Part shown: piece by piece, positions 16,723-50,513 of the stretch
How positions within the stretch are numbered: the first letter of the stretch is position 1
Layout of the letters: each line of letters opens with the position of its first letter
From: Pseudomonas asplenii
GTDB lineage: Bacteria > Pseudomonadota > Gammaproteobacteria > Pseudomonadales > Pseudomonadaceae
Direction of reading: 5' to 3'
Length of the DNA: 64,000 bases
NCBI RefSeq assembly: GCF_900105475.1
Contig: NZ_LT629777.1
Span: 496,001-560,000 of the forward strand
Program-made: the position numbers and the translations under genes
The notes under the pieces: model-generated
What the model was told of the DNA's origin: nothing
Databases searched by the model: none
The model's input: only the letters and a program-made list of their open reading frames with translations

Positions 16723-16733
16723 AGGTGTTCCTA

Positions 16734-16761
16734 TATAATTATTGGCACAATTTTGTCACAC
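16734..16761. promoter_or_regulatory. Divergent promoter and possible operator between MBL gene and integrase
   Basis: The 50-bp gap has a plus-strand TATAAT (16734-16739) suitable for int. On the minus strand GTGACA and TATATA 16 nt apart are suitable for the MBL gene. Overlapping them is TGGCACAATTTTGTCACAC (16743-16761), an imperfect palindrome. It recurs with one mismatch at 51214-51232 near the other end, so it may be an integrase arm site or an operator. Confidence 0.5.
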
Positions 16762-16772
16762 CGAGAATAAAA

Positions 16773-17888
16773 ATGGCGACACTTCGAAAGCGTGGCCCGT
16801 CTCAGTGGCAGGTTCAGGTCAGACGAAAAGGATGGCCCCTGCAAACCAAGACATTCAATACCCAGGCTGAAGCAAAGACATGGGCGACCATGATCGAGCG
16901 CGAGATGGACGCGGGCGCGTTCGTCAGCCGAAATGAGGCCGAATCCACCTCATTCTCTACGGCTCTGGAGACGTATGCTAGCGAAGTAACAAGCAAGAAG
17001 AGGAGCAGTGCCTCGGAACTTTCTAGGATTCAGGCCATGCAGCGACATCCGCTAGCCATGAGATCGCTGGCCAGCATTCGTGGCGCCGATCTGGCCAGCT
17101 ACCGTGATAGTCGGCTCGCTGAGGGCTTAGCTCCGGCAACTGTGCGCCGAGAGCTAGCTTTGATCTCTCACGTCTTTACCATTGCCCGCAAAGAATGGCG
17201 CATGGAATCACTAAGCAATCCCGTCGAACTGATACGCCAACCGAGCGTCGACGACGCGCGCGATCGCCGTATCCTTAGCGCAGACGTCTGGACGCTCGAA
17301 GCTGGAAAGCTCGTAAAAGAACACCTCGACGAGCTAGAGATGATTCGACGCTACTCTCGATCAACCGAGCTGCCCCAGATTGTAACTTTCGCAGTGGAGA
17401 CAGCCATGCGCCGGGGGGAAATCTGCAGCCTTCTGCGCACCAATGTAAATTTGGAGAAACGGGTCGCTCTACTCCCGATGACCAAAAACGGATCTGCGCG
17501 AGGAGTGCCGCTGTCTAGCAAAGCAGTAGAGGTACTTAAAAGCCTGCCCGAACGCGATAGAGAGGATACCTACTTCAAGAGCAGACCTGACACCATCACC
17601 AAGGCATTCGCTGACGCTATCGAGGACGCTCGCCAGGCGTACCATGGATTATTGGAGCGCCACATGAAACAGAAGAAGTTACCCAAGGATAAGATCGACA
17701 AGCGAATTGCCGAAGACCCGTTCTTGGTTAACCTTCGCTTCCACGATCTACGCCACGAGGCGACATCACGCCTAGCTGACATTTTCCCGCTGCACGAACT
17801 AACCAAGATCACCGGACACCAGGACACCCGAATGCTGATGCGTTACTACCACCCAAAAACAGAGGATCTCGCAAAAAAACTGGCTTAA
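16773..17888 (+). CDS. int: Site-specific tyrosine integrase
   Basis: A 371-aa phage-type tyrosine recombinase. It has an N-terminal AP2-like arm-binding segment (WQVQVRRKGWPLQTKTF), a SAM-like core-binding domain (about 60-160), and a catalytic domain with Arg in AMRRGEICSLL (about 212), HDLRHEA (His and Arg at about 324-327), the GHQ His, and the nucleophile Tyr in MRYYHPK (about 357). The ATG at 16773 is chosen because the protein begins with the family-like MATLRKRGPSQWQV. It is adjacent to attL and reads into the element, as usual for integrating islands. Confidence 0.95.
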   Translation: MATLRKRGPSQWQVQVRRKGWPLQTKTFNTQAEAKTWATMIEREMDAGAFVSRNEAESTSFSTALETYASEVTSKKRSSASELSRIQAMQRHPLAMRSLASIRGADLASYRDSRLAEGLAPATVRRELALISHVFTIARKEWRMESLSNPVELIRQPSVDDARDRRILSADVWTLEAGKLVKEHLDELEMIRRYSRSTELPQIVTFAVETAMRRGEICSLLRTNVNLEKRVALLPMTKNGSARGVPLSSKAVEVLKSLPERDREDTYFKSRPDTITKAFADAIEDARQAYHGLLERHMKQKKLPKDKIDKRIAEDPFLVNLRFHDLRHEATSRLADIFPLHELTKITGHQDTRMLMRYYHPKTEDLAKKLA

Positions 17889-27175: not shown

Positions 27176-27605
27176 GATGTAACTCCAAAAGAGGGATCTG
27201 GATGCCGACGGCCATCGCCTGTCCTAGATACCCAGCATGTTTGATGTAGCTGAATACTTCGAATCGACTGGCTACCGAGCGAGGGCCGTCGTCGAAAAGG
27301 CGATTACGAAGATTGAGTAAGCCGATCTCATCAGGGGCGTTTTCCGAAAATAGCGCCAGGTGCCAACCACCACTTCCCTCCCAGCATTTCTCATCGGATA
27401 GCGGATGGGGAACGACGTACGCCTCTTTGATCGGCAACACCTGCTGAGCGATAGCTAACATGAGTACGAAAGGACCTGCGTTTTCGTTGGTAAGCGAAGC
27501 GCGAAGCTGTTCAAGTTGGACCGCGAGATTGGAGATCTCTAAAGCAAGCATCTGCTTGCCAAGAGCTTGGATCTGATTAAGGAATTTTTCATGATCCCTA
27601 GACAT
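27168..27605 (-). CDS. Hypothetical protein in relaxase operon
   Basis: A 145-aa soluble protein. The N-terminal third is a coiled-coil-like helix (EKFLNQIQALGKQMLALEIS); the rest is mixed. Its start overlaps the relaxase stop (TAATG), so it is coupled to it. A role in DNA processing is possible only by position. Confidence 0.6.
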   Translation of the reverse strand: MSRDHEKFLNQIQALGKQMLALEISNLAVQLEQLRASLTNENAGPFVLMLAIAQQVLPIKEAYVVPHPLSDEKCWEGSGGWHLALFSENAPDEIGLLNLRNRLFDDGPRSVASRFEVFSYIKHAGYLGQAMAVGIQIPLLELHHD

Positions 27606-30600
27606 TAGATCGATCTCCTGTGGCTATAAGTTGCTTCACCTTCGTCATACGAAGGTTGGGTTTCTGGCTGGGCAGCCGGCCTTGTTGTCGGTTCTGCCGG
27701 AGCAATGGTTTCAGAATTCTGCACTTCTCGCTGGGCGCTCATCGCTTCGATACGCTTCAGGGCTTCGTTGGGATCTTCGCCAAGCTGCAGACCAATACGC
27801 TCGCGAACATCCTCGATCTGCGCATCAGCGAACTGGCTGACGAGTCGAGCATGACGCTTCACCGTAAGGCTATCGCCGCCTTGGTCACGATCATAAGCAA
27901 GCGAAAAGCGCTGAATTTTATAGCGCTCGGCCAGGGCGATGATTGCCGCCTCAGTGTTTGGACCAGGTTCGCCAGTTGTGCCGATGAACAGGATTCGCTG
28001 CCGCTCTTCTGGGCTAGCCAACTGGTAGGTGCTCAGGGTGTCGACACCGCCCTCGCTGAAGCGGATTTCGGTGGGGTTCGCGCATTTCGGGTTGGCGAGG
28101 TAGACACCTTTTTCAGTTTCTGTCGTAAAACCCTTGAACTCACGTCGTTCGCCATTGATAACCTGAGCGCCGCGGTACTCATACCCGCAGAACTTGGCAT
28201 TAGCATCAATGTGAGGAAACACAGCGGAGCCATGCCGGCTCGTACGCCAGCGCGTTTCGGCCAACACTTCGGACGAGATACCTCGCTCTTGGCTCAGATA
28301 GCTATCACGGCGAGACATGAAACCGAAAGTGCGGTAGTGGTTTTCCGTGCTGGTTGCGATTGTCTCTAGGCGCTCGCGTTCCTTCCTCTGTCGCGACTCT
28401 TCGCGTGCCCGATCAATACGGGCCTGCTCTTCCGCTGATTTACCCAGCGAAGGCAGAACGCCCCCCTGAAACGCACGAATATCGTCCTTGGCCTGGATGA
28501 AGGTGCCGCCACTGGCTTCCTGATAGAGCTTGAAGATGTCACCGCTCTTGCCCGAATGGCGGTCATGCCAGACCCAATTGTCATCAGCAGCTTGGTAAAT
28601 GTCGTATTTCCCTGAGGCGTGGCGGAAAACAGCATGTCCTTTGTACGAGGCCTTCTTGTCGTACTCCATGCCCAGGTGAGCAGCGTAGTCGGCCAAGTCA
28701 ACGTCGCGTTTCATCGCGGCGACTTCGCGGGCGTCTGATGCTTTGTCGTATTTCATCGAGCGTGCTAAAGCAGTACCAGGAACCTGCCGTCGCACTCGAC
28801 CAAGAGGCTGTCGATCAGCGAGTGTGTTATCGGGCAATACACCCTCACGTCCCCTTCCGGGACCTGCTGCCAGATCGCATGTGGACAACGTACGCAGACA
28901 GTCTGAGGGAGCTCGCCCTGCAGGGCGTTTAAAGTTGCCGAGCGGACGGGAGAAGGCTTCTTCGTTTGCTGCGTCACCGGCGCCGGCGGCGCGGTCAAAT
29001 TGGCCGAGGCTGCCGGCGACTCGCTGGCCTGCGGCGCCGGCTCGGGATTCGGGTCGGGAAACTCCATCGGCGGCGGCGACAGGTCGTCCATCAACGCGGG
29101 GGTATCGGCCGAGGCCGGCAAGGGTGGCAGGTCGGACAGGATCAATTCGGACATAGCGGGCCTCCTGAGGCTCAGGCTTGATCAGTTTCAGCTTCGTGGT
29201 GAATAAGGCGGTCTTCATTCCCTGAAGCGTTTCGCAAAGGTCGCGGCGCTGCTCTGGGGGAACGGATGAGCCGGGGTTTGTCCATCGCGCAACTTCTGCA
29301 CCTGGAGCGGGGTTTTCTGCAGCTACAACGGCAACGCGGCGGGCATCAGCCGGCCAGGTTTGTTCGTCGATGCGAAAGTCGACGATTTCAGCGCCGAAGG
29401 CCTTGGCGTGCTCGATCTCAACCTCTATGGGCGGCAGGACGGTGACGGACTGGCGGGGTTGTTCTTGGGGCTGTTCCTTCGCCTGGCCGGGGAACTGGAA
29501 AAGTGGAGAGGCCCCCTGGAGACGATCGAGGACGGAAAGTTTCTGAGGGGTCAGCCTGAACGGCTGGCCGGTGTGCACGGATGCGCGAATAGCTTCGCGA
29601 GCCTGAGGCATCAGGTCGAGAGCGTTCTCTTTATAGACGAATTCCGCCGTCGACTTCTTGAATGGGAGCCAGTTGGCTTCACTCAGGTACGTTTTGCACC
29701 CGTGGACTCCGCGGGTATAGGCGACATACCAAGCCTGCAGAGAAGCGTAGGATGACGGCAGGTAGTAAGACTGCATAACAGTCATGCCCTGCGCTTTATG
29801 GCCGGTCATCGTATAGCCGTGCTGCAGCGACTCGTATTCACTGGCATTGATCTTGACCGTCCTCCCATCGTCCCGGGTGATCGTGAACAGAATGTCCTCG
29901 ATCCGCTCACCGTCGACTTCGCGGGTGACTCGCTCGATACCCAGCACGGTGCCAAGGTCCCCGTTGTAGATCGGTTCATTCTGAGAGTCCTTGGCCGTTT
30001 TGCGTAAAAGCAGGCGGTCACCAATCGCAACCTGAATCGTGAATCGCTCGCCGGGCAGTACCTCGGTTTCGATGCTTACGCTGCCTACAGCACTCAATTC
30101 ACCACGAGCGAATCGGGCATCACGAATTTTGTCGTTGAGCGCCCGTACCTGTTCGTTCGTATCAGTGAGGACAAGAATCTGGGACCAGTCCAACTCACGG
30201 ACAACGCTATCCTTCCCTGGCAGACCAGCTTTCATGTCAGCGAAAACATCGCCAACCAACTCGTCAGCTTCGTTCACGCCGTCAGCGAAAACCTTGAGCT
30301 GATCATCGCGCTGCATGTGGCGGACCGCATCGCTCACCTTGCCTTCATAAAGGGCCTGAGCAGTAGGCCTGAACTGGTCGACTTGGCGGGCGATCGTTTC
30401 GATCTTGGCGCAGCGATCCCCAACAACGTCGTGCAGAAGGCCGAACAATGCGGCGGTCTCCACTGCGTCATGCTGGTTTCTATCACCAACGCAGATCAGG
30501 CGGGCGCCTGCCTGGTGACAAGCCACCACCAGGTTATGCATCTGGTAGGTGTCCAGCATGCCGGCTTCGTCGCACACGACGATATCGCCGCGTCCGATGA

Positions 30601-32497
30601 GATCCTGCTGTTTGAAACGCTGCCCAACCTGCTGCGCGGCAAGCGCGTTCTGGTGCTTGATCAGTAGTGAATGGACAGTCTGGGCCTGAATACCGGTCGA
30701 CTTAGCCAGCTCCGTTGCCTGCTTGTTTGCAGGCGCAACGCCAATTACACGGCGCCCCTGCGCCTTGAAAACTTCGGCGTATACGCGGAAGGTCGGCGCC
30801 AGAGTGGAAGACTTACCAACGCCAGCGGCCCCCTTAAAGAATGTGTACTGACCTAGTCCAGTCAGATCGTAGGCAGCTTGGCGCTGCTCCTGAGTGAGCC
30901 GAAAAGGCTTTTCGCCTGGCTTCTGGGTCGCCTGTTTTTCCTTCTCATAGTCGTCAATCACCTGGTCAACAAAGGCACGGCCAACATTCCAACTCGGATC
31001 ATCGAGACCAGCATGCACCGCCTTTACGCAGTCGGCTTCAAGGGTGAAGAGCTCCTTCGTCGTGTAACGCTTCGACGGCATGCGGCCGTTTTCGTCCGGC
31101 TGCTGGGGAATTTCGATGAGGCCGAGTTGTTTGTAAATCTCCGACTTGGTTGCTTCGATTTCTTCAAGGCCACCTTTGCCAATGGTCAGGTGCGCGGCCG
31201 CGGAATCGATCGCGAATTCATCGATCACGGTGGATCCGCGGAACACCATACGCTGCAGCTCAGCGAGACTCGGTGCCTGGAGATCTTTGGTGGTTGATGC
31301 CTTCAGCTCGACAGTGGGAATCGCTTCGCGCCAATGACCATCCAGGCTGTCGCCTAGCTCGATGTCCTTCGCATCGCGGCTTCGGACGGCGATAGCCTGA
31401 GCTGCAGCTTGGCCAGCGGTGGCCATAGTCTTCTTCTCTGCCTGGATCTGCTCGCTGCGCTTGGAAAACTCGGCGACGAGTTCCTTCGAAACTGAAGCAT
31501 CGTTGAGACGCAGGCCATGCCCGCTCCAATCAACGACCATCGCAGAAGCCAACTCAGGGAGGCGTGCCTGGAGACGCTGATAAAAGGCCACGTCGACGAC
31601 TGCACCAAACTCCTTCTGGCTCTTGTACAGCCATCCCGCATCGAGGGTCAGGAACTTGCCGTCGACGGTGCGAACGAAATTCGGCCGTTCCAGGTGTACG
31701 TGAAGCTGAGGATCAGGGAAATCCTGGCCGGGGGCGCGACGTGCTGTGCAATGGGCATATGTCAGAGTGACGCACTCGCCGGTTACAGATTCTGCGCCCT
31801 GAGCGCCTTCACGTCCGCGAATCCGGCCAGTACGGTGCTCGCGCTCGATCGCATCGTTCACAGCCCCCATCATGCATTCCTGGATCACGCGACGGGTTTG
31901 GTCGTCGGCCTGTGCCCAGTAGATGCTGATGGACTTCTGCAGGCTCACACACGAGCTGAAGCCGAGAACAGGATCCTTTGCCGATTTTTCTTTCCCGTCC
32001 TTCTCCAGTCGCTCCAGGTCGCCGGCGTTTAGCTGCTTTTTCGAGGACGGGTTTGCCTTCTTCGATTCAGCTTCCTGAATAGCCTTGTCGATGGCCTTTT
32101 GGCGCTTCTCATCAAGGAACGCCTCTCCGGTGCGTGGGTTGATTCCACGGAAAAGAGCTAGGTAATCACCGTCCTGGGGATGCTCACCGAGGCCCAGCTT
32201 GTTGGCCAACGGTCCTGCAATACCCGATGCCAAAGTGTCGTTGCCGGACTTGTGGTAGTAGTCCTCTCGTCCTGTGCCCTGGTCGCCCTCCACCTGACTG
32301 ACGATAGCGGCGATCTCGGCGTCGACTTTCGCCAGTTCGGCAGCCATGACCTCATCTGTCACGCCACGCTCTGCGCCGAGATCAATGCGCTTCTCACGTA
32401 AGGCCTGGAGCTCCTTCAGCTTCTTTTCGAAGTAGGAAGCCTTGGCCGCAAAATTACCGGCCGTGGTCTTCTGGTTGCTCATCCCGTAGTGACTCAT
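27605..32497 (-). CDS. MobF-type relaxase/helicase (TrwC/TraI-like) fused in frame to a DUF3991/TOPRIM primase-like region
   Basis: One open frame of 1630 codons. Residues 1-80 form a coiled-coil-rich start. The TrwC relaxase region has a tyrosine pair (EDYYHKS, about 80) and the metal His triad HCTARRAPGQDFPDPQLHVH (about 250-268). An SF1 (RecD-like) helicase follows with Walker A GAAGVGKSS (about 553-561), DEAG (about 641) and a late YTMTGHKAQGMTV. From codon 1248 (MKYDKASD) a primase-like DUF3991 and TOPRIM region follows, with Glu in FSEGGVDTLS (about 1482) and DRDQGG (about 1537). Codons 1115-1245 are low-complexity, and here another gene lies in a different frame (28765-29154). So the product may be a true fusion, or the last part may be made from its own ATG at 28756. 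The start overlaps the upstream stop (ATGA). Confidence 0.88.
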   Translation of the reverse strand: MSHYGMSNQKTTAGNFAAKASYFEKKLKELQALREKRIDLGAERGVTDEVMAAELAKVDAEIAAIVSQVEGDQGTGREDYYHKSGNDTLASGIAGPLANKLGLGEHPQDGDYLALFRGINPRTGEAFLDEKRQKAIDKAIQEAESKKANPSSKKQLNAGDLERLEKDGKEKSAKDPVLGFSSCVSLQKSISIYWAQADDQTRRVIQECMMGAVNDAIEREHRTGRIRGREGAQGAESVTGECVTLTYAHCTARRAPGQDFPDPQLHVHLERPNFVRTVDGKFLTLDAGWLYKSQKEFGAVVDVAFYQRLQARLPELASAMVVDWSGHGLRLNDASVSKELVAEFSKRSEQIQAEKKTMATAGQAAAQAIAVRSRDAKDIELGDSLDGHWREAIPTVELKASTTKDLQAPSLAELQRMVFRGSTVIDEFAIDSAAAHLTIGKGGLEEIEATKSEIYKQLGLIEIPQQPDENGRMPSKRYTTKELFTLEADCVKAVHAGLDDPSWNVGRAFVDQVIDDYEKEKQATQKPGEKPFRLTQEQRQAAYDLTGLGQYTFFKGAAGVGKSSTLAPTFRVYAEVFKAQGRRVIGVAPANKQATELAKSTGIQAQTVHSLLIKHQNALAAQQVGQRFKQQDLIGRGDIVVCDEAGMLDTYQMHNLVVACHQAGARLICVGDRNQHDAVETAALFGLLHDVVGDRCAKIETIARQVDQFRPTAQALYEGKVSDAVRHMQRDDQLKVFADGVNEADELVGDVFADMKAGLPGKDSVVRELDWSQILVLTDTNEQVRALNDKIRDARFARGELSAVGSVSIETEVLPGERFTIQVAIGDRLLLRKTAKDSQNEPIYNGDLGTVLGIERVTREVDGERIEDILFTITRDDGRTVKINASEYESLQHGYTMTGHKAQGMTVMQSYYLPSSYASLQAWYVAYTRGVHGCKTYLSEANWLPFKKSTAEFVYKENALDLMPQAREAIRASVHTGQPFRLTPQKLSVLDRLQGASPLFQFPGQAKEQPQEQPRQSVTVLPPIEVEIEHAKAFGAEIVDFRIDEQTWPADARRVAVVAAENPAPGAEVARWTNPGSSVPPEQRRDLCETLQGMKTALFTTKLKLIKPEPQEARYVRIDPVRPATLAGLGRYPRVDGRPVAAADGVSRPESRAGAAGQRVAGSLGQFDRAAGAGDAANEEAFSRPLGNFKRPAGRAPSDCLRTLSTCDLAAGPGRGREGVLPDNTLADRQPLGRVRRQVPGTALARSMKYDKASDAREVAAMKRDVDLADYAAHLGMEYDKKASYKGHAVFRHASGKYDIYQAADDNWVWHDRHSGKSGDIFKLYQEASGGTFIQAKDDIRAFQGGVLPSLGKSAEEQARIDRAREESRQRKERERLETIATSTENHYRTFGFMSRRDSYLSQERGISSEVLAETRWRTSRHGSAVFPHIDANAKFCGYEYRGAQVINGERREFKGFTTETEKGVYLANPKCANPTEIRFSEGGVDTLSTYQLASPEERQRILFIGTTGEPGPNTEAAIIALAERYKIQRFSLAYDRDQGGDSLTVKRHARLVSQFADAQIEDVRERIGLQLGEDPNEALKRIEAMSAQREVQNSETIAPAEPTTRPAAQPETQPSYDEGEATYSHRRSI
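28765..29154 (-). CDS. Nested cysteine-rich protein overlapping the relaxase frame
   Basis: A 129-aa protein encoded within the relaxase frame, shifted by one base. A perfect AGGAGG lies 6 nt before the ATG. The first 75 residues are Pro/Ala/Ser-rich and acidic (SELILSDLPPLP...). The last 45 hold the metal-binding-like pattern CVRCPHAIW...VYCPITHSL...ECDG. It stops 8 nt before the ATG (28756) that opens the primase-like part, the spacing expected of an operon gene. In the relaxase frame the same DNA reads as unstructured R/A/G-rich sequence, which supports this frame as the selected one. Confidence 0.7.
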   Translation of the reverse strand: MSELILSDLPPLPASADTPALMDDLSPPPMEFPDPNPEPAPQASESPAASANLTAPPAPVTQQTKKPSPVRSATLNALQGELPQTVCVRCPHAIWQQVPEGDVRVYCPITHSLIDSLLVECDGRFLVLL

Positions 32498-32928
32498 CGC
32501 TCAATCTCCATGCCTGTCTGCTCGGCAATGAGGCGATCCATAACCATCGGCACGAGCCGATTGAGCATCGGCTCGATGGTGTCAGCGAGCAGTTCAGGCC
32601 GACGCTCGGCCTGGCTGGCGAGAACCTGCAACAGCAGATCAGGAAGAGCAGAGCCCAGAAGGGAAGAAACGGATTGGGTAATTGCGCCTGCAATCGAAGC
32701 CACAACCGGGCCATCGAGCAGAACAGGTACCGGACGAGACGGCTCGGCACAGAAGCGCTGCGCCTCTAGGAAGCCCGCGATCTCTTCGTCTGTACGCTGG
32801 GACATGAGGGCATCGAGTACGCGGCCTTGAGCAACGCCCAAGCGTGCCGAAAGGCGCTCCAAGCGCACCGCTGCAACTTCATTCAGGTACTGGGTCGAGG
32901 TCTTTGCCCCAGCCTTTTTCCGCGCCAT
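32494..32928 (-). CDS. Relaxase accessory protein, predicted DNA-binding
   Basis: A 144-aa protein encoded just upstream of the relaxase with a 4-nt overlap. The basic N-terminus followed by TSTQYLNEVAAVRLERLSARLGVA looks like a ribbon-helix-helix or a short HTH. The remainder is helical and hydrophobic. Position and size match TrwA/TraJ-type oriT-binding accessory factors; this is inference. An inverted repeat 15 bp upstream of its start could be its own operator. Confidence 0.6.
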   Translation of the reverse strand: MARKKAGAKTSTQYLNEVAAVRLERLSARLGVAQGRVLDALMSQRTDEEIAGFLEAQRFCAEPSRPVPVLLDGPVVASIAGAITQSVSSLLGSALPDLLLQVLASQAERRPELLADTIEPMLNRLVPMVMDRLIAEQTGMEIER

Positions 32929-33271
32929 TTTCCTTTTCCCTTCTGAGAACGCTTCTCAGGTAGACGGCTTTAGCCGGCGTACCTTGCTTTTGCTTTGTTG
33001 GCTTTACGGCTTGGAGTCCGCGAACTGCGCGGGATCCGGGCCGACGCGAAGCACCCGAAGGGTGCAGATGTGTTAACGAAAGCTGTATATATACAAGCAT
33101 CTCGCATCACTTTAAGCAAGTTTTGCTTGACTCGCATTAGTTTACAACTAATATGAGCCTCAAGCGGCCTACCTTTGCAGCTTGTTTGCAACAAACCGCC
33201 AACTAGAAGCCGAACCTTTGGTAGAGTTAGCAAGCAGTTTTAAACAAACGCAGCGACCATAGGTGAATGCC
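32929..33271. other. Intergenic region with inverted repeats, candidate oriT and divergent promoters
   Basis: About 340 bp between the relaxase operon and the rightward transfer operon. It contains CTGAGAA-CGC-TTCTCAG (32943-32959), AAGCAA-GTT-TTGCTT (33114-33128) and ATTAGTT-TAC-AACTAAT (33136-33152), a palindromic TGTATATATACA (about 33084-33095), and a direct repeat CTCGCAT at 33101 and 33131. Such a cluster between divergent mobility operons is the usual setting for oriT. The nick site cannot be assigned from sequence alone. Confidence 0.5.
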
Positions 33272-33805
33272 ATGTTTGACCGACGCACAGACGCCGAACG
33301 CGCCCGTGATGAGCAGGACCAGCTGGAGTGGATGCGGATGCAGCAGGAAGAGGCCGATCGCAAAACGGCGGCATTGAAAGCCGAGCTGGAGCGTATGAAG
33401 GCCGCCGCTGAATCTGGCAGTGGCCAGAAGAACGTAAGGGGAAGTGTCACGAAAGCTTTGCTGCCGAGGATCGAAATCCTCCGCGAAGCAACGCGCTTAG
33501 GAACACCGATCACTCAACAACAGGAAATGCTGGAAAGGGCTGGGATCGTTGTTAGCTACAACAGCCTGCGCAAGTTCATCCAGAAATTCTTGGCTCGCGA
33601 GTACCGAGAGTTTCTGGCGAACGTACGAACGACCGGAGCTGATCCTGATTTTGGGCGTGAGTTACACCCTGAAGTCATCAGCAAGAACACCCCTGAAGCC
33701 TTCGATAAGCGACCAGCAGAAGTACCGAACGCTAACGAAGAGCGCGGTTCAACCGCAGGAAACCTTGACTTAGAGCGGGCGGCAACCCCTCGAAAGTTTC
33801 TCTAA
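33272..33805 (+). CDS. Coiled-coil/HTH protein at head of transfer operon
   Basis: A 177-aa protein with an N-terminal coiled coil (about 8-50, rich in Q/E/R) and a middle segment (about 60-108) that looks like a helix-turn-helix (GTPITQQQEMLERAGIVVSYNSLRKF). The tail is polar. It is the first gene of a seven-gene rightward unit and precedes the ParA-like ATPase by 18 nt. It could be the DNA-binding partner of that ATPase. AGGTG precedes the ATG; an in-frame GTG three codons earlier is possible. Confidence 0.65.
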   Translation: MFDRRTDAERARDEQDQLEWMRMQQEEADRKTAALKAELERMKAAAESGSGQKNVRGSVTKALLPRIEILREATRLGTPITQQQEMLERAGIVVSYNSLRKFIQKFLAREYREFLANVRTTGADPDFGRELHPEVISKNTPEAFDKRPAEVPNANEERGSTAGNLDLERAATPRKFL

Positions 33806-33823
33806 AAATCAACGGGAAAACCC

Positions 33824-34660
33824 ATGAGCAAGAAGGAAGAGAAAATGGCAAAAGTAGCAGCCGTTGCACACTTGGTGGAGATGGACGACCTTAACCTCGA
33901 TTCATCGTGGCTCACTGCGTCGCGGATCCGCCCGCTGCAACTCCCAGTTGGTAGTGACCCTGGCGCGTCGATTGAACACCTTATCTACGGCAGCGGGTTG
34001 GACAGCTTCGTTTTGGACATCGGTGGCAATGAGACAGCGAGCAAGACCATCATGGCCATCGGTGAGCAGATGCTACTGCGTCACTTCGACCTGACTCTGA
34101 TTCCCGTACGCGACGAAGGCCAGGATGTTGATAACGCCTTCAAAACCATCAAGCTGATCCGCGAATTCGATAAGCAAACCCCGATTGCCATCCTTCTCAA
34201 CGACATCACCAGTCGCACCCAGGACACCACGGATCTCGCGCTGCGCGAAGCGTTTGCCGAAGTGTTCGATTTGGCTGAGCAGACCGGCACCGAGCTCCTT
34301 GTCATGCCTCGAATCGAACGCTATGGCCGTAGTCGGCGCATCGGTCTGACTCAGTGGGAGATTTCCGAAGAGCGCGAAGCGATCGCTGATCGCCTACGCA
34401 GCATCATCATCGAGGCCGAACAGGCTGGTGACCTCGACCGCGCCAAGCTCAATACCCGCCTGATGCGTGCCGTGACCGGCTCGAAAACCGTGCGTGAAAT
34501 GATCAATGTGGTGTTCAAGCGCCTCGATCAGATCCTCGGTCAACGCGATCGCCTGCGCATGATGGTCGTTTCGACCAAGGGCGGGGTCGGCAAATCGTTT
34601 ACCTCACAGCAGCTGATCGCGCCGTACCTGCTCCATTCGCTGGGTGGCCGCCATGAGTGA
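33824..34660 (+). CDS. ParA/StbB-like ATPase with C-terminal P-loop (apparent circular permutation)
   Basis: A 278-aa protein. Near the N-terminus is the strand that normally follows the P-loop helix (HLVEMDDLNLDSSWL, about 17-31). Then come the Walker B-like FVLDIGGNETASKT (about 61-75), a strand-helix LTLIPVRDEGQDVDN, and the adenine-side VLN-type strand IAILLND. The deviant Walker A STKGGVGKSFT is at residues 250-260, only about 20 residues before the end. In ordinary ParA/MinD/StbB proteins it is the first element. Joining the last residues (YLLHSLGG) to the first (VAHLVEMDD) gives a normal ParA order. A second start at 33845 has a better ribosome site (AGGAA). It overlaps the next gene by 8 nt. 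Confidence 0.8.
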   Translation: MSKKEEKMAKVAAVAHLVEMDDLNLDSSWLTASRIRPLQLPVGSDPGASIEHLIYGSGLDSFVLDIGGNETASKTIMAIGEQMLLRHFDLTLIPVRDEGQDVDNAFKTIKLIREFDKQTPIAILLNDITSRTQDTTDLALREAFAEVFDLAEQTGTELLVMPRIERYGRSRRIGLTQWEISEEREAIADRLRSIIIEAEQAGDLDRAKLNTRLMRAVTGSKTVREMINVVFKRLDQILGQRDRLRMMVVSTKGGVGKSFTSQQLIAPYLLHSLGGRHE

Positions 34661-35318
34661 CATTGGCGGCGCAATCCGCTCGATTGATGAGCTCGTTGAT
34701 GAAGTGACGCGACTCCACGTTCTCCTGCGCGGCAATCGCGATTATCCAGGCATCCTGGAAGAGTCTGTGAAACTCATCGATAGGCTGGACGGTGTTGCTG
34801 GCCATCTTGCCAGCGCCTCCCTGTTGAGCGAACAACTGGGGGCCTTGCCTGACCGCCTGCTGCGGTCGGCAGATGACATTCAGTTCAGGGCGGCCTTGCG
34901 TGAGTCGATCGCGCAGGTACTGGCTGACTCGATCGTTGACGCCAAACGCCATGTGGAAGACGAAGCGGCTCAGATCGCGATCGATGAGTTGAGCATGAAG
35001 ATCAACCTTGCCATGGCCAATGTAGGTGAGAGCTCGGCAAATCTGTTTGCCGAGCGGAATCAGCTGAAAGGCAAATTCGAAGCAGAGAGAGAAAAGAACG
35101 CCGTGCTGGTCCAGCGAATGAAGTACTTCGAGCAGGACAAAGACAACGCACTTCGCTTGATCTCGGCCGACTTTGCCGCCGCGAGCAATCGCGCCGGCAA
35201 GGCCCGATTGCTCGACCTATGCATCGGCCTGGTTATCGGTGTCGTTGTATCTCTGACCACGCTTGTGCCGGCGGCTGAGCAGTACCTCAAGCAATCTACC
35301 CAAAACCACCACCAATAG
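34653..35318 (+). CDS. Coiled-coil protein with C-terminal membrane anchor
   Basis: A 221-aa protein. Residues 1-100 are helical, residues 110-165 a coiled coil (FAERNQLKGKFEAEREKN), and residues 190-215 a single transmembrane helix (DLCIGLVIGVVVSLTTLV), leaving a short outside tail. Start and stop overlap with the ATPase gene (ATGAGTGA), so the two are likely partners. No family recognised. It could tether the ATPase or DNA to the membrane. Confidence 0.7.
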   Translation: MSDIGGAIRSIDELVDEVTRLHVLLRGNRDYPGILEESVKLIDRLDGVAGHLASASLLSEQLGALPDRLLRSADDIQFRAALRESIAQVLADSIVDAKRHVEDEAAQIAIDELSMKINLAMANVGESSANLFAERNQLKGKFEAEREKNAVLVQRMKYFEQDKDNALRLISADFAAASNRAGKARLLDLCIGLVIGVVVSLTTLVPAAEQYLKQSTQNHHQ

Positions 35319-35354
35319 CGCTAACGCGCAACCACTACTGACGGAGAAAATCGC

Positions 35355-35690
35355 ATGACCAACCATAGCGATGACGGGGATTTTCGTGCCCGAAAAAAGA
35401 AGGTGAGTTTGCTTGGCAGTGACGCGGAGGCGTTTATCCGTGCCCGACGCGAGGAGCGCGAAGAGTTCAAGCGCCTTGAGGGGCGCGACCTTGATGAGCT
35501 GGACACACTGGCCAAGGATCCGCGCATGGAGGAGTTACATAAGCAACATCAGCAGCGGGACGACGCTCCAGCATCCCACGCTGAGCAGCGAGAAGATGCC
35601 CAGGAGGTGGTCCAGGAGGAGCAAAAAAAGCTGACTGATCAGCAGGTCAACCAGGAAAAACAGAGCGAACACGCCGGGAGATCAATGTGA
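35355..35690 (+). CDS. Highly charged coiled-coil hypothetical protein
   Basis: A 111-aa soluble protein, almost entirely E/K/R/Q/D, with predicted helices throughout (AFIRARREEREEFKRLEG; EVVQEEQKKLTDQQV). It belongs to the transfer operon; its stop overlaps the next start (TGATG). Confidence 0.65.
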   Translation: MTNHSDDGDFRARKKKVSLLGSDAEAFIRARREEREEFKRLEGRDLDELDTLAKDPRMEELHKQHQQRDDAPASHAEQREDAQEVVQEEQKKLTDQQVNQEKQSEHAGRSM

Positions 35691-36184
35691 TGGATAACAG
35701 AACCCTCATTGCAGCATCGGCACTGGTCGCAGTGTTTACTGGCCAGGTGGGCGCTTGCCCTCTTGAAGATTGCCTGCCTGGATTGAGCGAGCCTCATTTT
35801 AAGTCTCGTGACCAAGACATGCTCGGTGTGTATGACCTGAAGCAGTCTGGACAAGCGGCAATGCACGTTGGGCTAATCGCCGCTGATTTCAGAATCGCAC
35901 TACTCGAAACTGAGAATCGCGCTCTTCGTCTGGCCTTGGCAACTGGTACTCCACCTGACGTCAGCAGCCTCAAGCTTTATCCGAGCCTGAACAGTTTTCT
36001 AGACGCGATGAAATCGGACCTGATTCAGACAGAAACAACTGGCCGGATGCCGCAATTACGTCATTTTGAGCAACGGGTCCGCAATGCGGACACCCGAGCA
36101 AAAATTGCTGATGGGGCGCGGGCGCTGGTAATCGAGAGCGCTCAAATTGCTGCGGCGGCGAACGCAACCAAGCAAGCGAATTAA
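35690..36184 (+). CDS. Hypothetical exported protein of transfer operon
   Basis: A 164-aa protein with a signal peptide (IAASALVAVFTGQVGA) and an adjacent Cys pair (CPLEDC). The mature part is helical. It could be a periplasmic component of the transfer apparatus. No family recognised. The ATG overlaps the previous stop; a GTG just before it is less likely. Confidence 0.65.
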   Translation: MDNRTLIAASALVAVFTGQVGACPLEDCLPGLSEPHFKSRDQDMLGVYDLKQSGQAAMHVGLIAADFRIALLETENRALRLALATGTPPDVSSLKLYPSLNSFLDAMKSDLIQTETTGRMPQLRHFEQRVRNADTRAKIADGARALVIESAQIAAAANATKQAN

Positions 36185-36260
36185 AAGGGTGGCTCACCTG
36201 AGCGGCAACTCAGGTGAGCCGGTTTCGCGGCAGGAAAAACCCACGAAAGGAAGAAATTGT

Positions 36261-38810
36261 ATGGTAACGCAATTCCGTAATTACATGGAAAATCTGCTTC
36301 TCTGGGTTACAGATCCAGAAGCAGCAAAACGCGCCTGGCGCGATCGCCGCACGCTGGCGATTCGCGAAGCGCTTGGTCCGCAACTGAGCGCGGATACTCG
36401 CGGCTGGCCGGTCGGTCAGATTCTGCATGACGATGTGATCGAGGCCCTCCCATCGGATCGTGCGTCCCTTACGCGCCGCGCCTTCTATGGCCGCGCTGCA
36501 TTCCACGCGGGCGCTCGACTCCAGAAGCGCCTACGCGCCCGGAATTTCGCGCTGAGCGTCGGTGCGCTCTTCCTGGTATCCGCTACGGCCTACCTCTTGG
36601 GTCACAACGGTTCCAGCCTCGCCTGGCAATGGGGTTCGATCGCTGCCGGTCTCTGCATCGCTGTGGCGGGGGGGTACATTTTCCGTTGCTCGCTCGGTCT
36701 GACGCCTGCGGCTTGGCGCCTGATGGTACCTGCCGGCCCGCTGCTGACTGAGGATGAAATTCAGGACGTGAAAGAGTTCGGCGCTCGCGTGTTGCTGCGC
36801 GTAACTCCGCCTCGGACGCCTGCCGATCTGGTGGGCTCGTATCGATCATGGACGTACGATCGCGACGGCAATCCTGTTGATGGCCAGATCGTGCCCGATG
36901 ACCTATCGGTGTCCTACTTGCGCAAAGCCCTGGTTGATGAGTCGATGCCAATGGCTGTCGCCGGAATCGCCATTCTGCTGGCCGGTCTATTCGTGGCTTC
37001 CGATTCCCTGAGCTGGTTCATCGCGCCGGTCGCCGCCGGCGGCGCTGCAGCTTGGTCGTTCCTGGCGATCTTCGATCTGTCCTCGATCGCTAAGACCAGA
37101 GCTGCGGCGGCCCGCGAGGCCCTGGCGGTCTCTGCCTATCCCAAACTCATTGAGCAGGAAGGTAAGAGCAAATTCGCGGACTTCGATCGCGCATTGAATG
37201 AACAGATCGAACGATCAATGAGCGAAAAGTCTTCGTTCATCAACCTGGGCACTGCAACTGATCTATTTGCTGAACGACGTGATCCGTATAGCCCCGCCCA
37301 AGCGGGCATGCCTTTCGGCCTGTCTGTGGGGGACCTTTCGACGCACATGCTTGTACTGGGCCAAACCGGGACCGGTAAAACGGCAGCGGTGATTCGGCCA
37401 GTGGTCTGGCAATGGCAAGAGGCAAAAGCAGGTGGCCTGCTGGTACTGGACGGCAAGGGTCAACTTCCGAAAGAGCTCGCCGGCCTGCCCGGTTACCGGG
37501 TTATCAGCCCAGAATCGTCGAACTTCAACGCCATCCAGAATCTCCAGCCGGATGAAGTCGCCGATACTCTTTTCCAGCTATTCAGCTCCGATAAAGGTAA
37601 TGCGGGCGACGTTTCGGGCAGCGAGTGGGAGCAATTCGCCCGTGAGTTGCTGCGCAGCACGGCGAAAGTTCTGGCCCTCATGAATGCCTTGGAGCCGGTC
37701 GAGTGGCCATGGAATCTCAGCTCAATCTACAAACTCGCATTCGAGCCAAGTAGCCGTGATCGAGCAAAAGAACTGATCGAAGGCGATTGCATGCATCTTC
37801 TCCCTGGACACCTGCATCGTGCTTATAACTCGTTCATGGTGCGCCACCTGCAGAAAGCCACCGAAACCCGTTCGTCCATCGAACTCAATTTGGAAACCTG
37901 GCTCGGTACTCTCATCAATGATCAAGAGCTTGGTGCGTGGGCTGACTGTGTTGAAGGTGTCGAGATCGAGGACTGCCTCTACGGCGCAATGATTGGGCTG
38001 GCTCTACCTGATACCCAGAGTGGCGTTGCCATTTCGGCGCTGGCTAAGCGTCGCTTCTATAGCGCGATCAAGCGCCGTGGCGACAACTGGAAAACCGAAG
38101 GTCAGGAGCCTGTGCTCCTGGTAGTCGACGAGGCACAGGATCTGGTTTCGCATGAAGAGCTGGCGATCCTGCCTAAAGCCCGCTCGCTCGGTCTGTGCGC
38201 GTTGTACTCGACTCAGGGCCTCGATGGTCTGCAGGTTGCACTGCAGGACGAGCAGGCCACGATCATGCTCCTAGATCAATATCGTTCTGTGGTGAGCATG
38301 CAAGTCGGCTCTGAGATGACCCTCGACTACGTTTCCCAGCGCCTGGGGGCTGCACCTCGCGTGGTGTTTTCTGAGGTCGCTGCGAACACAACTGATCCGG
38401 TGGCCACGGCAAACCTTTACGGCGCAAATGCGGGCGGTTACTCCACTGGAACCTTGGCTGCCAAAGCGCAGACATCAGACGAGATGATCAACGTGGGGCG
38501 TTCGTATAGTCATGTCGGCCAAGCGATTAGCACTGTCTCTGAGTTAGCGAAGAAGCTGGGCGCTGAACAGGCATGGCAGCAGCTGCCTGCCGCAATTCGT
38601 AGGGAGCGGCCGGCTGGCAGCGTAAAAATTGGCGAGATCCCGCTCGTGTCGCCGGAGGAGATCCGGTCGCTGACGATGAAAAAATTCACGGCCCTGGCTG
38701 CGGTGAATCGTTGCGGCACCGTCCGCCGCGCCCAGATCCGTCTCAATCCGATGTTCACATTCCCAACCGAGCAGCAAATTGAACAGCCCGCTGAGGAGGT
38801 AGCAGCATGA
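36261..38810 (+). CDS. Type IV coupling protein (TraD/VirD4-like ATPase)
   Basis: An 849-aa protein. The N-terminal part has two pairs of membrane helices (about 94-139 and 229-273). The ATPase domain has Walker A GQTGTGKTAAVIRP (about 366-379), LVLDGKGQLPKEL with the conserved coupling-protein loop, and Walker B LLVVDEAQDL (about 618-627). A helical tail follows. Coupling proteins recruit the relaxase-DNA complex to the secretion channel. Here no channel is encoded nearby, so a helper would be required. AAAGGA precedes the ATG. It overlaps the next gene by 4 nt. Confidence 0.87.
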   Translation: MVTQFRNYMENLLLWVTDPEAAKRAWRDRRTLAIREALGPQLSADTRGWPVGQILHDDVIEALPSDRASLTRRAFYGRAAFHAGARLQKRLRARNFALSVGALFLVSATAYLLGHNGSSLAWQWGSIAAGLCIAVAGGYIFRCSLGLTPAAWRLMVPAGPLLTEDEIQDVKEFGARVLLRVTPPRTPADLVGSYRSWTYDRDGNPVDGQIVPDDLSVSYLRKALVDESMPMAVAGIAILLAGLFVASDSLSWFIAPVAAGGAAAWSFLAIFDLSSIAKTRAAAAREALAVSAYPKLIEQEGKSKFADFDRALNEQIERSMSEKSSFINLGTATDLFAERRDPYSPAQAGMPFGLSVGDLSTHMLVLGQTGTGKTAAVIRPVVWQWQEAKAGGLLVLDGKGQLPKELAGLPGYRVISPESSNFNAIQNLQPDEVADTLFQLFSSDKGNAGDVSGSEWEQFARELLRSTAKVLALMNALEPVEWPWNLSSIYKLAFEPSSRDRAKELIEGDCMHLLPGHLHRAYNSFMVRHLQKATETRSSIELNLETWLGTLINDQELGAWADCVEGVEIEDCLYGAMIGLALPDTQSGVAISALAKRRFYSAIKRRGDNWKTEGQEPVLLVVDEAQDLVSHEELAILPKARSLGLCALYSTQGLDGLQVALQDEQATIMLLDQYRSVVSMQVGSEMTLDYVSQRLGAAPRVVFSEVAANTTDPVATANLYGANAGGYSTGTLAAKAQTSDEMINVGRSYSHVGQAISTVSELAKKLGAEQAWQQLPAAIRRERPAGSVKIGEIPLVSPEEIRSLTMKKFTALAAVNRCGTVRRAQIRLNPMFTFPTEQQIEQPAEEVAA

Positions 38811-41264: not shown

Positions 41265-43451
41265 TTATTCGCCGCCACCTTGAGGAGGCGGCTGTCTTCC
41301 TGGTGGATTGATCATTCGACTGATAGAGCCCGTCAGAATCTGGCGGGTACTCATCGAAAGCCCACCCATGATTCCTTGCATGCTGTTCTCGTACGGATTC
41401 AGGCCTGGCTCAGAAAGGCTTATCATGTTGAGGACACTGCGGGGGAAACTTGTGATTAGTTGAGCACTGGTGACGACCACGTTCCATGACAGCAAGATGA
41501 TGACTATGACCATCAGCAAGCCACCAATCAGGATCCCGCCTAGGCTTTCCAATGGGCGCCCGACTTCAGCCACGCCTGGATCAAACATGCCCCAGAGTCC
41601 CATGGCCATCGCCTGGACCATCGCCAGACCGACTGCGCTGATCACGATCGCTGCTGCCAGCCCCCCCACGGCCAAAGCAGGATAGAGGAAGATGAAAATG
41701 AAGGCGTTATACCCTTTCGCCGACAGCTGGGAGGTGTGCTCTTCGCCTTTCGGTGCGGCCATACCAGCCGACCAGAGCGTCACTCCGAAAAACGTCGTCG
41801 CAACTGCGACGAGCCAGCTAATTGCCCCCATCAGTCCATAGATCGCGAAAAGCAGAGGCATCACGTAACCGAGCAACCCGCCGGAGATAATCATTACTCC
41901 GCCGATTGCTTTTGGCAGCGTCCCATCGGTGATTGAGCTCAAACCTGGAATATATTGGGCTATCGTCCCACCCGCAAAAAAGCCAATGCCAGTGCCAACG
42001 AGTGAGCGTCCCCAGGCCGCGATGTTGTGGATATTCTGATTCGAGGGCCCGGTCGTGGACTTGAGGATGTCGAGCGAAAAAACTCTAGCCAGCAGCGACT
42101 TTTCAGAACCAGTATTACCAGGTTGAAGTTGAGCCAGGGCTTCATTCTCGACCAGCTTTGATAAGTCGTCACCTGGCGTCAGCGTAGACAATGCCGACTT
42201 TGGCATCATCTGAGCTGTAGCTCCTTCCGAGTAGCTCGCGGCACGAGAGAAGTCACTCGCTGCGCGCAGCACGAAAGTGCCACCAAGCATCCAACCCCAA
42301 TTTTTTACTTCATTAAAATACTCCTCACTGCGAGCAGCCTGGTCGGTAGCAATTGTGGTGGCGATGGTTTGCTCAACCACTTTTTTGTACCAGTCCGCGG
42401 ACTGACTAGCCCATGTGATGCTGTCTTCAAAAAACTTCTTCGCGTCCCCTGCCCCCACAGCCCCGTCTCGGGCCGAAATTGCCTGCTGGACGGCATGCTC
42501 AACCAGACCGATCCAGATTTGACGCTGAGCTGAGGCTATACCGGCCTCAATAGAGGCAGCGTTGTTTTTCTTGACCTGTGCGTACTCATCGCTGCAAGTC
42601 ATTGAAGACAACCAGCCGGCTTGGCAAAACCACCCCTCGGTTTCCATCTCCCTTTCGACCGTGCCAGTAACAGCGTCCGGTTCGATCAGTCCCTGGACAC
42701 CCATGCTGGCAGCTCGGGCCAATTCGTCACTCGGCGGGATTAACGGTATCTGCAAAGATCGGCCAGCGTTTGCGATATACACGTCTGCAGCAGCCGTTTC
42801 AGTCGAGCCTGCAGCGGGATATTTACTGCCGTAAACCTGATTCCATCTGATTTTCAGAGCCTCTTCCGCAAGGTCGCGACTCGAAAGCGAGATCATCTGA
42901 TCGTTAGGATCTCGAAAAATCTTTAGACCGGCGAGTTGAACCGCTGAGATTTTCCAGCTGTTTAACATGTCCAAAGCGACTTTCGCGTCAACTTCAACTC
43001 GAAATTTCGGATCGCTAAACAGGTTATGGCGATGCATAAGCTCAAAAGCATTGTGCTGCATAGTGTCGCCAAATTCTGCCGCAGACTTGGAGATACCTGC
43101 GACAAGTGCGTGTCCCGGCGTCAAAGTGATCGGAATTCCGCCAGCACTAGAGACAGGGATAACTGGTGCAATTAAAGACAAGGCGACGATGACCCGCAGC
43201 GGGTAGAAAAACGCCTCGTTTCCATCTTTTGCACCGAAAAAATTACCGTTGTTTTTGAGTCGAAAAATACCTAGAAACATGGCCCAGGCCGCAAGAGCGC
43301 CGAACATCGCGAGGCCAAGTGTTGCGAATGCGGACGCAAAAATTGTCAGTGGTGTTACGTCTTGGGCAACGAAATCAGTAACTTCTGACGGGTGAAATAT
43401 CCAACGCCCAAACATCCAGGACAAAACCAGCTGTGAAAAACTGTTCATCAC
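41265..43451 (-). CDS. DotA/TraY-like conjugal transfer membrane protein
   Basis: A 728-aa polytopic inner-membrane protein. Helices are at both ends (about 33-65, 85-105, then several between about 495 and 680), with a large periplasmic loop of about 350 residues. This architecture and motifs such as FYPLRVIVALSLIAPVIP and the late Gly-rich helices match DotA of Legionella and TraY of IncI plasmids. TraY is a component of the type IVB system and the target of entry exclusion. No other type IVB core gene is present in the window. The start overlaps the upstream stop (ATGA). Confidence 0.78.
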   Translation of the reverse strand: MMNSFSQLVLSWMFGRWIFHPSEVTDFVAQDVTPLTIFASAFATLGLAMFGALAAWAMFLGIFRLKNNGNFFGAKDGNEAFFYPLRVIVALSLIAPVIPVSSAGGIPITLTPGHALVAGISKSAAEFGDTMQHNAFELMHRHNLFSDPKFRVEVDAKVALDMLNSWKISAVQLAGLKIFRDPNDQMISLSSRDLAEEALKIRWNQVYGSKYPAAGSTETAAADVYIANAGRSLQIPLIPPSDELARAASMGVQGLIEPDAVTGTVEREMETEGWFCQAGWLSSMTCSDEYAQVKKNNAASIEAGIASAQRQIWIGLVEHAVQQAISARDGAVGAGDAKKFFEDSITWASQSADWYKKVVEQTIATTIATDQAARSEEYFNEVKNWGWMLGGTFVLRAASDFSRAASYSEGATAQMMPKSALSTLTPGDDLSKLVENEALAQLQPGNTGSEKSLLARVFSLDILKSTTGPSNQNIHNIAAWGRSLVGTGIGFFAGGTIAQYIPGLSSITDGTLPKAIGGVMIISGGLLGYVMPLLFAIYGLMGAISWLVAVATTFFGVTLWSAGMAAPKGEEHTSQLSAKGYNAFIFIFLYPALAVGGLAAAIVISAVGLAMVQAMAMGLWGMFDPGVAEVGRPLESLGGILIGGLLMVIVIILLSWNVVVTSAQLITSFPRSVLNMISLSEPGLNPYENSMQGIMGGLSMSTRQILTGSISRMINPPGRQPPPQGGGE

Positions 43452-49598: not shown

Positions 49599-50513
49599 TC
49601 AGGAGCGTCGCTTGCTTTTCGCGTGTGCGATTCTTGTCCAATTCACGACCTCATCCCTGATGCACCACTGTTCGATGACTCCCACTCCTTCTAACTCACG
49701 TAATGCTGGCGGCAAAGCCCTGGTCTTGAAGTCTCGTGCACGCCCACGGGACCCACTCCACTTTCGAAGCGATTCCCAAGCCACCCTATGCACTCCAATA
49801 GAATGCCCCGAAATATAGTTCTGCAGATATTTGGAAAGTGGACTCTTAAGACGCAACCGGATCTCCATATCGATAAATGCGAGGTAGCTATTTGCAAAGA
49901 GTGAAACGACCATAGGATCCATCATTATCCAATAATTATTTTCCTGCCCCCACTTAAGCTTATCAATCAATCGAAACGTCTCCCCACCACTATTAGCATC
50001 AACAAATATAGTAGCGCTCGCCAATCGCTCAATTGACTCATGCAGGCGACAATAGCTCTCTGCAGATAGATCGCTCCCCCTGCCTATAGCTCGCAAAAAT
50101 GCAGCGCGCTCAAAATATACTGGCTCACCTACTGACAGTCCTTGAGCCAATTGAACCGCATGAAGAAAAACGTCATTATCATACATATCGAGTTCTTCTC
50201 CTGACATTCGCACTCGATAATCCGATCTACCCTCAAGAATTTCATTTTTTAATATGCGACGTTCTCCTTTCTTCACATTGGAAAACAATCCAGTTCTCGT
50301 CCACTGAGTGGGCATTGCGGATGCTAAGGGAGGAAAAAAAGGAAATTGCTCTTGAATACATACTTCCTCCACACATGGCATCGTAAGTTCGTTCTGCAAC
50401 TGTGCTTTAAAGCTGTCACGCTCGATTGCCTCACGAAGGCGTCGGTCCAGAATTATTTGGATCTTTGAAATGTTTTTTTGAGCTGCCGTTCCCGGCGATT
50501 GGGACTCAAGCAT
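49599..50513 (-). CDS. TrfA-like plasmid replication initiator
   Basis: A 304-aa protein resembling TrfA of IncP plasmids: MSGEELDMYDNDVFLHAVQLAQG (about 102-125), VYFERAAFLRAIGRG, the winged-helix stretch RLHESIERLASATIFV, and the late KYLQNYISGHSIGVHRVAWESLRKWSGS with the second DNA-binding helix region. Such proteins bind iterons and recruit host DnaA/DnaB. The iterons and DnaA box sit just past its stop. Its ATG overlaps the end of the AlpA-like gene by 8 nt. Lower GC than the chromosome. Confidence 0.82.
   Translation of the reverse strand: MLESQSPGTAAQKNISKIQIILDRRLREAIERDSFKAQLQNELTMPCVEEVCIQEQFPFFPPLASAMPTQWTRTGLFSNVKKGERRILKNEILEGRSDYRVRMSGEELDMYDNDVFLHAVQLAQGLSVGEPVYFERAAFLRAIGRGSDLSAESYCRLHESIERLASATIFVDANSGGETFRLIDKLKWGQENNYWIMMDPMVVSLFANSYLAFIDMEIRLRLKSPLSKYLQNYISGHSIGVHRVAWESLRKWSGSRGRARDFKTRALPPALRELEGVGVIEQWCIRDEVVNWTRIAHAKSKRRS

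Follow-up and report, generated by a model that had tools for sequence, protein, structure and literature searches.

We examined a gene at positions 33824-34660 of the forward strand in a 64,000-nucleotide (nt) stretch of Pseudomonas asplenii contig NZ_LT629777.1 (positions 496,001 to 560,000; hereafter, the window). Its open reading frame (ORF) is intact in the window DNA and encodes a 278-amino acid (aa) product. The deviant Walker A motif KGGVGKS (residues 252-258, within STKGGVGKS at 250-258) sits at the C-terminus of this protein, and the chain opens at β2, the strand that in conventional relatives comes after the P-loop helix. The features of this gene are as follows.

33824..34660, + strand: probable circularly permuted ParA/StbB-like ATPase, 278 aa (ORF, homologue search and hidden Markov model [HMM] order test)
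33866..33895, + strand: β2 and the E-M-D-D-L-N motif, residues 15-24, the first structured element, which follows the P-loop helix in conventional relatives
34013..34030, + strand: Walker B or switch II-like LDIGGN, residues 64-69 (function label by analogy)
34538..34555, + strand: putative short linker, residues 239-244, from the old C-terminal helix to the old N-terminus
34556..34642, + strand: relocated P-loop module, with β1 at 245-249, Walker A KGGVGKS at 252-258 and α1 at 257-273

A first-pass annotation of the window, made from the letters alone, had placed STKGGVGKS at residues 250-258 of 278, which is its position. It had also read the gene as intact and not as fragments, in agreement with the 278-aa ORF and the overlapping neighbour on its 3' side. 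Its central proposal, a natural circular permutation, is supported by family-wide conservation of the layout, conventional relatives in the same operon slot, swapped HMM matches and structure prediction.

Against Pfam, the full window protein matched only through residues 247-265, which aligned with positions 2-20 of CbiA (19.6 bits). Two NCBIfam models matched below their curated cut-offs, ParA_partition (residues 28-144 to profile positions 44-156) and StbB (residues 61-232 to positions 68-231), and the last 35 residues alone matched the starts of profiles (CbiA 2-20, StbB 2-26). Both halves of the protein therefore match the same families, but the wrong way round. Residues 1-243 alone gave weak matches, best to ParA_partition (4.7e-4) and StbB (0.013), with a poorer match to an unrelated family (E 0.035) and no Pfam match at E ≤ 1. 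The first-pass annotation had stated that its proposal would fall if a profile search matched the N-terminal ~240 residues to an unrelated family, an outcome that did not occur.

The pseudomonad permuted family and its conventional counterparts

A search of ~5.8 billion proteins, clustered at 90% identity, returned 57 homologues of the window protein (the query counted), many of the first dozen being near-copies. Scoring the P-loop as C-terminal if it lay inside the last 70 residues, we found this position in 55 of the 57, so the layout is family-wide; one other homologue (P0057) is conventional and one (P0055) has a permuted core followed by a C-terminal extension. P0045, one of the 55, is without the N-terminal part, and both it and P0055 were excluded from the set of 88 permuted proteins used below (54 pseudomonad-type and 34 Campylobacterota-type). 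The unusual extension of P0055 (~130 residues in a protein of 411 aa) may be artefactual, from read-through or from the contig. At <80% body identity, 12 representatives make up the pseudomonad permuted family. Permuted proteins of this kind are easily missed, as none of the 57 homologue rows carried a precomputed Pfam domain and all rows with a source name read "hypothetical protein".

P0057, a hypothetical protein of Pseudomonas sp. MWU12-2037, is the closest conventional relative found; it is 46-50% identical to the window protein and has the ordinary order. Its sequence starts with MTVSTKGGVGKS, with the Walker A motif from residue 6, and its P-loop helix passes directly into QANLIELDDLNLDSAW, giving the layout MTVSTKGGVGKS...SRLG-QANLIELDDLNLDSAW...LDEIL. 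Re-joining the ends of the window protein therefore reproduces the segment order of a real protein, and the earlier idea that closing these ends restores the usual ParA order is borne out by a natural example.

Conventional StbB-like proteins at four further loci (L004, L005, L010 and L023) share ~37% identity with the window protein over the body and the same operon slot and neighbours, but have the ordinary order: in tblastn comparisons, residues 17-239 of the window protein matched downstream of residues 234/244-274. Their genes are flanked by homologues of the window's 180-aa (34-37% identity) and 224-aa (28-31%) genes, with a homologue of its 165-aa gene (50-67%) farther along. A relaxase at ~33% identity is present in L004, L005 and L010, and the L023 stretch ends there (36% over 107 residues). 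Because the flanking genes are the same, we regard the permuted and conventional genes as positional counterparts.

Matches occurred in four of 398 genomes from the genus of the window: three have the permuted order, among them the genome of the window itself, and the fourth is conventional. An initial draw of 38 relatives gave a match in the window's own genome alone. Plasmid and phage collections held no match for the window protein (P0001), and the plasmid collection held none for P0065 and two weak partial records for P0058. Searches of viral contigs recovered one conventional locus with query A1 (L010) and, with query A5, two ordinary ParA genes that are not permuted (L055 and L056).

A second permuted family and the number of origins

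Permuted ATPases, a second family that the first-pass annotation did not mention, were also found in Campylobacterota, at loci L007 and L009 of a genome scan and, by profile search, in 34 proteins among the 120 listed of 209 hits, one of which is named by a source as Suden_1625 of Sulfurimonas denitrificans. In a draw of 397 Campylobacterota genomes, 361 had some match, mostly to conventional genes or to P-loop stretches of other ATPases, and at least four (G043, G041, G706 and G743) had a full-length permuted-order match, with permuted loci in all four. The first of these, a Sulfurimonas metagenome-assembled genome, holds permuted (L009) and conventional (L017) StbB-like ATPase genes together. 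Conventional ParA-like ATPases of the same superfamily also occur in this phylum in apparent chemotaxis clusters, with neighbours judged by eye (L006, 9983-10807; L008, 840-1676). Aligned with each other, the pseudomonad and Campylobacterota permuted families are collinear across 235 columns (E 1.1e-17), which places their cut at the same site, the α1-β2 loop. In hhalign comparisons of the pseudomonad permuted profile with conventional profiles, the body alignment alone was reported.

At L007 and L009, the permuted gene lies 3' of a short coiled-coil/membrane-type gene and 5' of a helix-turn-helix (HTH)-like gene, with a TrwC relaxase downstream and, in L009, a type IV coupling protein (T4CP). 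The shorter stretches L027 and L028 likewise have the HTH-like gene downstream and the coiled-coil/membrane-type gene upstream, so that the HTH-like gene follows the ATPase in four of four distinct permuted Campylobacterota genomes. At conventional loci of this phylum, it is upstream in L017, L029-L032, L036 and L039 and downstream in L033-L035, L037 and L038; at the remaining ones, a small HMM found no HTH-like gene or a doubtful longer one (L044 and L045).

Segment order was assessed with HMMs built from conventional-order relatives alone (7 pseudomonad-type and 17 Campylobacterota-type proteins). The pseudomonad-type HMM matched P0001 in two swapped pieces, model positions 32-254 at residues 13-240 (1.5e-64) and positions 3-32 at residues 245-274 (1.7e-8). 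Across the 88 permuted proteins at a domain E ≤ 0.05, this HMM gave 78 swapped and no collinear matches, with one body-only match, eight P-loop-only matches and one protein without a hit; at E ≤ 1 the counts were 87 swapped and one without a hit. With the Campylobacterota-type HMM, 87 were swapped, none collinear and one P-loop-only at both limits. Each of the 89 conventional proteins was matched, and neither HMM gave a non-collinear result for any of them; the 89 include 24 training proteins. From these swapped-order results, we conclude that the layout is not due to chance, a broken gene or an assembly error of the window genome.

The motifs themselves are retained. Walker A KGGxGK[ST], DDxN/DxNN after β2 and DxGG[NG] are present in 54/54 pseudomonad and 34/34 Campylobacterota permuted proteins, and the bodies of all 88 contain no second GxxGK[ST]. 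The Walker A with its signature lysine and the ParA-like α/β fold of the predicted structure are those of ParA/MinD ATPases. In such ATPases the P-loop is N-terminal, ahead of the remaining domain, whereas 87 of the 88 have the swapped order; we therefore class the window protein as a circularly permuted ParA/MinD derivative and not as an ordinary member.

Trees were built from the shared body only, excluding the P-loop module, with outgroups all of conventional order. A quick tree of 110 representatives needed two order changes, which its starred branches force. In a careful tree of 69 sequences, the pseudomonad and Campylobacterota permuted families had support of 97/97 and 98/92, respectively, and P0057 was the sister of the former (96/82). 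A single origin was seen in 0 of 200 bootstrap trees of this set, and a constraint to one permuted clade was rejected (log-likelihood difference 182.3; approximately unbiased test p, 6.6e-37). A third tree with 24 locus-derived rows again needed two changes (99/96 and 91/93). From these sequence comparisons, the same permutation at the same loop appears to have arisen independently in two distant bacterial groups.

Predicted structure, rival explanations and possible origin

AlphaFold models of permuted proteins (pLDDT 87 and 93) match ParF, their best-ranked solved fold, along the body, and the part that stays unaligned is that of the relocated P-loop. In the model of the window protein, a helix ends at residue 238 and a strand begins at 245. 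The predicted monomer is thus ParA-like, and the non-ParA fold that would have spoken against a permutation did not appear. Nearly all body differences between close alleles are silent: over 229 codons of the body, the window gene differs from L002, L003 and L020 by 17, 23 and 18 synonymous and 0, 1 and 1 nonsynonymous changes; from the distant L022 it differs by 89 synonymous and 74 nonsynonymous changes, with synonymous sites saturated. The α1-β2 loop lies remote from the nucleotide in P-loop folds. Because the new ends fall in this loop, the swap probably alters the finished protein little, and ATP-dependent dimerisation and hydrolysis would be retained.

We consider it very probable that the product of the window gene is a ParA/MinD-fold, StbB-like ATPase that has been circularly permuted in nature, a judgment that covers the whole explanation, including its two origins and the inferred origin and role. 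Other accounts of the layout fare poorly. That it is a sequencing, assembly or gene-calling artefact has a next to negligible chance, as nothing except the oddity itself speaks for it, the ORF is intact and overlaps its neighbour, and permuted genes lie on many separate contigs in two phyla. The C-terminal P-loop might instead be an unrelated or newly evolved motif on a body that lost its own nucleotide site, an account with which the lack of a Pfam match to residues 1-243 would agree; we judge it highly improbable, since HMMs built from conventional relatives recognise the moved segment as the N-terminal part of their own model, no other GxxGK[ST] occurs in the 88 bodies and AlphaFold yields one confident model. 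A single ancient permutation, with later return to ordinary order in P0057, Stutzerimonas-type and many Campylobacterota lineages, would explain why both families share the cut loop and align collinearly. It is nonetheless very unlikely: body-only trees assign the two families to separate conventional clades, a constraint to one clade lowers the log-likelihood by 182 units, every outgroup used has conventional order, and a shared cut site is expected if just one loop tolerates cutting.

Several points weigh against a twice-permuted StbB-like ATPase, for which the case consists of sequence, trees and predicted structures. The window protein scores 21 bits (E 1.8e-4) for NCBIfam StbB (NF041292), short of the curated cut-off of 200 bits; conventional relatives P0058, L004, P0099 and P0130 likewise score just 22-35 bits, and P0057 has no StbB match at E ≤ 1. 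A Foldseek comparison with the PDB gave no match at E ≤ 0.001 and had aldolases and reductases in its top rows; such an outcome is expected when a permuted chain is compared by a sequential method, and we read it as no evidence either way on the fold. The P-loop segment (30 codons) has one synonymous and one nonsynonymous change relative to L002 and 10 and 7 relative to L022, too few to judge selection. Support for the Campylobacterota clade is lower (91/93 in the locus tree; 93 by the Shimodaira-Hasegawa-like approximate likelihood ratio test in the quick tree), and the tree program flagged long branches that meet near the base, as well as an unusual letter composition of the pseudomonad rows. 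We think that the split does not depend on either problem, since the pseudomonad family is separated from all the others by P0057 and the Stutzerimonas-type proteins. Neighbour order at permuted Campylobacterota loci differs from that at many conventional ones, which makes a strictly in-situ origin less clear there. Names modelled on StbA and StbC for the genes flanking the window ATPase reflect position. Regarding the origin set out below, we found no direct ancestor of either permuted family that represents a duplication intermediate, a search for a duplication scar gave no direct repeat of ≥20 nt in 33200-35400, and the known tandem genes, at L042 and L043, are a diverged pair in another clade.

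The permuted chain is cut in the loop between α1 and β2, and some six residues connect the old C-terminal helix with β1, the strand of the old N-terminus. We infer that a gene was duplicated head to tail and the copies fused, after which trimming at both ends removed the first P-loop and the second body. The grounds for this are that conventional genes are found at an equivalent operon position, flanked by the same genes, and that the linker is similar to a conventional N-terminus (RLRIMVV compared with MIRILCV). A methionine lies within five residues ahead of STKGG in 50 of 54 pseudomonad permuted proteins and in 0 of 34 of the Campylobacterota family; together with the linker likeness, the pseudomonad pattern would suit a fused duplicate and is suggestive of one. 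In L042 (662-2187) and L043 (1483-3011), a pair of conventional StbB-like ATPase genes stands in tandem, 11 nt apart, with the Walker A of the first gene altered in L042 (KGGVGTT) and intact in L043, so head-to-tail arrays from which a permutation could start do exist. A tail match upstream of the conventional L023/L024 gene (profile 218-271, with stops), considered as a duplication remnant, proved to be a short resemblance at the end of the HTH-like gene. As a tentative idea that we hold to be rather doubtful, ParA-fold ATPases of transfer modules might undergo permutation time and again at a single favoured loop because it brings an advantage, with tandem copies as raw material: a P-loop translated last could hold back ATP binding and sandwich-dimer formation until synthesis of the whole chain has finished, or the new ends could dock partners.

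Genomic setting, likely role and known systems

The genes and sites around the window ATPase are as follows.

16725-17888: tyrosine integrase
27605..32497, - strand: MOB_F (TrwC-type) relaxase-helicase (PF08751, 7.9e-36)
32494..32928, - strand: 144-aa gene between the relaxase and the intergenic region
33140..33249, no strand: three direct repeats of 13 nt (GTTTnnAAC-like, 77-100% alike) between the divergent relaxase and stb-like operons
33263..33805, + strand: HTH-like gene, 180 aa, in the StbA position; no Pfam match of note
34653..35318, + strand: 224-aa protein with a coiled-coil look and a C-terminal hydrophobic segment (by eye), in the StbC position
35355..35690, + strand: operon gene, 111 aa
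35687..36184, + strand: operon gene, 165 aa, also beside conventional relatives (50-67% identity in L004, L005, L010 and L023)
36147..38810, + strand: TraD/TraG-like T4CP (PF12696, 1.9e-7)
49599-50513: TrfA-like replication gene

The ATG of the 224-aa gene at 34653 overlaps the ATPase stop (the ORF list gives GTG 34644), and the coupling protein that the first-pass annotation had placed in this operon is the TraD/TraG-like gene. The layout of 180-aa gene, ATPase and 224-aa gene, divergent from a TrwC relaxase and accompanied by a T4CP, resembles that of the R388 stb genes, with the two flanking genes equated by position. Profiles of the HTH-like genes from the two phyla match weakly (E 6.7e-5, 45 columns, probability 64%), and homology of the membrane-type partners is unsupported (hhalign probability 8%). 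The 13-nt repeats may be candidate partner-binding sites or an origin of transfer (oriT), and chance could also account for them. The window between 16725 and 50820 holds the integrase, MOB_F relaxase, T4CP and TrfA-like gene together with an HTH_17 gene, a set suggestive of an integrated mobilisable element or plasmid. Pfam scans of 18 window proteins, a subset of the window, identified no mating-pore gene. At 41265-43451 (- strand) lies a 728-aa protein without a Pfam match at E ≤ 0.01 and with apparent membrane segments by eye.

By analogy with StbB of R388, the window ATPase is likely to be the ATP-driven switch of a MOB_F transfer module, and its relaxase, coupling protein, HTH-like and membrane-type neighbours make a StbB-like role in DNA transfer plausible. 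An ATP-driven dimer switch of this type would act with the HTH-like protein on DNA and with the membrane-type protein at the envelope, and would bring the DNA of the element to the MOB_F relaxase/T4CP transfer machinery. It is possible, though on balance unlikely, that the same permutant has another job, either partitioning of the plasmid or element or control of the coupling protein or relaxosome. ParF as the best-ranked solved fold and the TrfA-like gene in the window favour such a job, as does stbABC of R388, which combines stability and transfer roles according to the available text of PMC3098194. The presence of a MOB_F relaxase near the gene in the window, L007 and L009, and of a T4CP in the window and L009, points instead to transfer. 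R388 StbB is the best-studied counterpart; the same available text describes it as dispensable for stability but required for transfer in the presence of StbA (PMC3098194).

The double permutation of a ParA/MinD-type ATPase at one loop suggests that β1-P-loop-α1 forms a module separable from the rest and that a cut at this place is tolerated by the fold. Permuted and conventional proteins that share an operon slot offer a comparison, provided by nature, of folding order, nucleotide binding and dimerisation. The first-pass annotation knew of no permuted ATPase of this type, and a full-text literature search turned up no permuted ParA/MinD/StbB protein among the matches listed, although subscription papers fall mostly outside it and priority is not certain. 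To our knowledge, natural circular permutation of a P-loop domain is otherwise described for GTPases alone. On a term search, the available text of a ParA review (PMC9178275) contains neither the stem "permut" nor StbB, and that of PMC7758060 has one sentence on permutations in Rossmann folds.

According to the available text of PMC3098194, R388 StbB and its relatives, such as TraL of RP4, and VirC1 are deviant Walker A ATPases encoded beside a MOB region with a gene for a DNA-binding partner. The window protein is likewise a deviant Walker A ATPase near a MOB region with an HTH-like partner gene, but its chain is permuted, and it carries a KGG motif where R388 StbB has SGxxGK. From ParF (the ParA of TP228) it differs in segment order; nothing in the body aligns with ParF residues 1-28, whose counterpart would be the C-terminus of the window protein. 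The circularly permuted GTPases YawG/YlqF (YRG) and cpRAS, with motif orders G4-G5-G1-G2-G3 and G3-G4-G5-G1-G2 in the available text of PMC2430557, share with the window protein the natural circular permutation of a P-loop NTPase domain; they are GTPases with other cut points, whereas the window family is a ParA-type ATPase cut between α1 and β2, an arrangement found twice.
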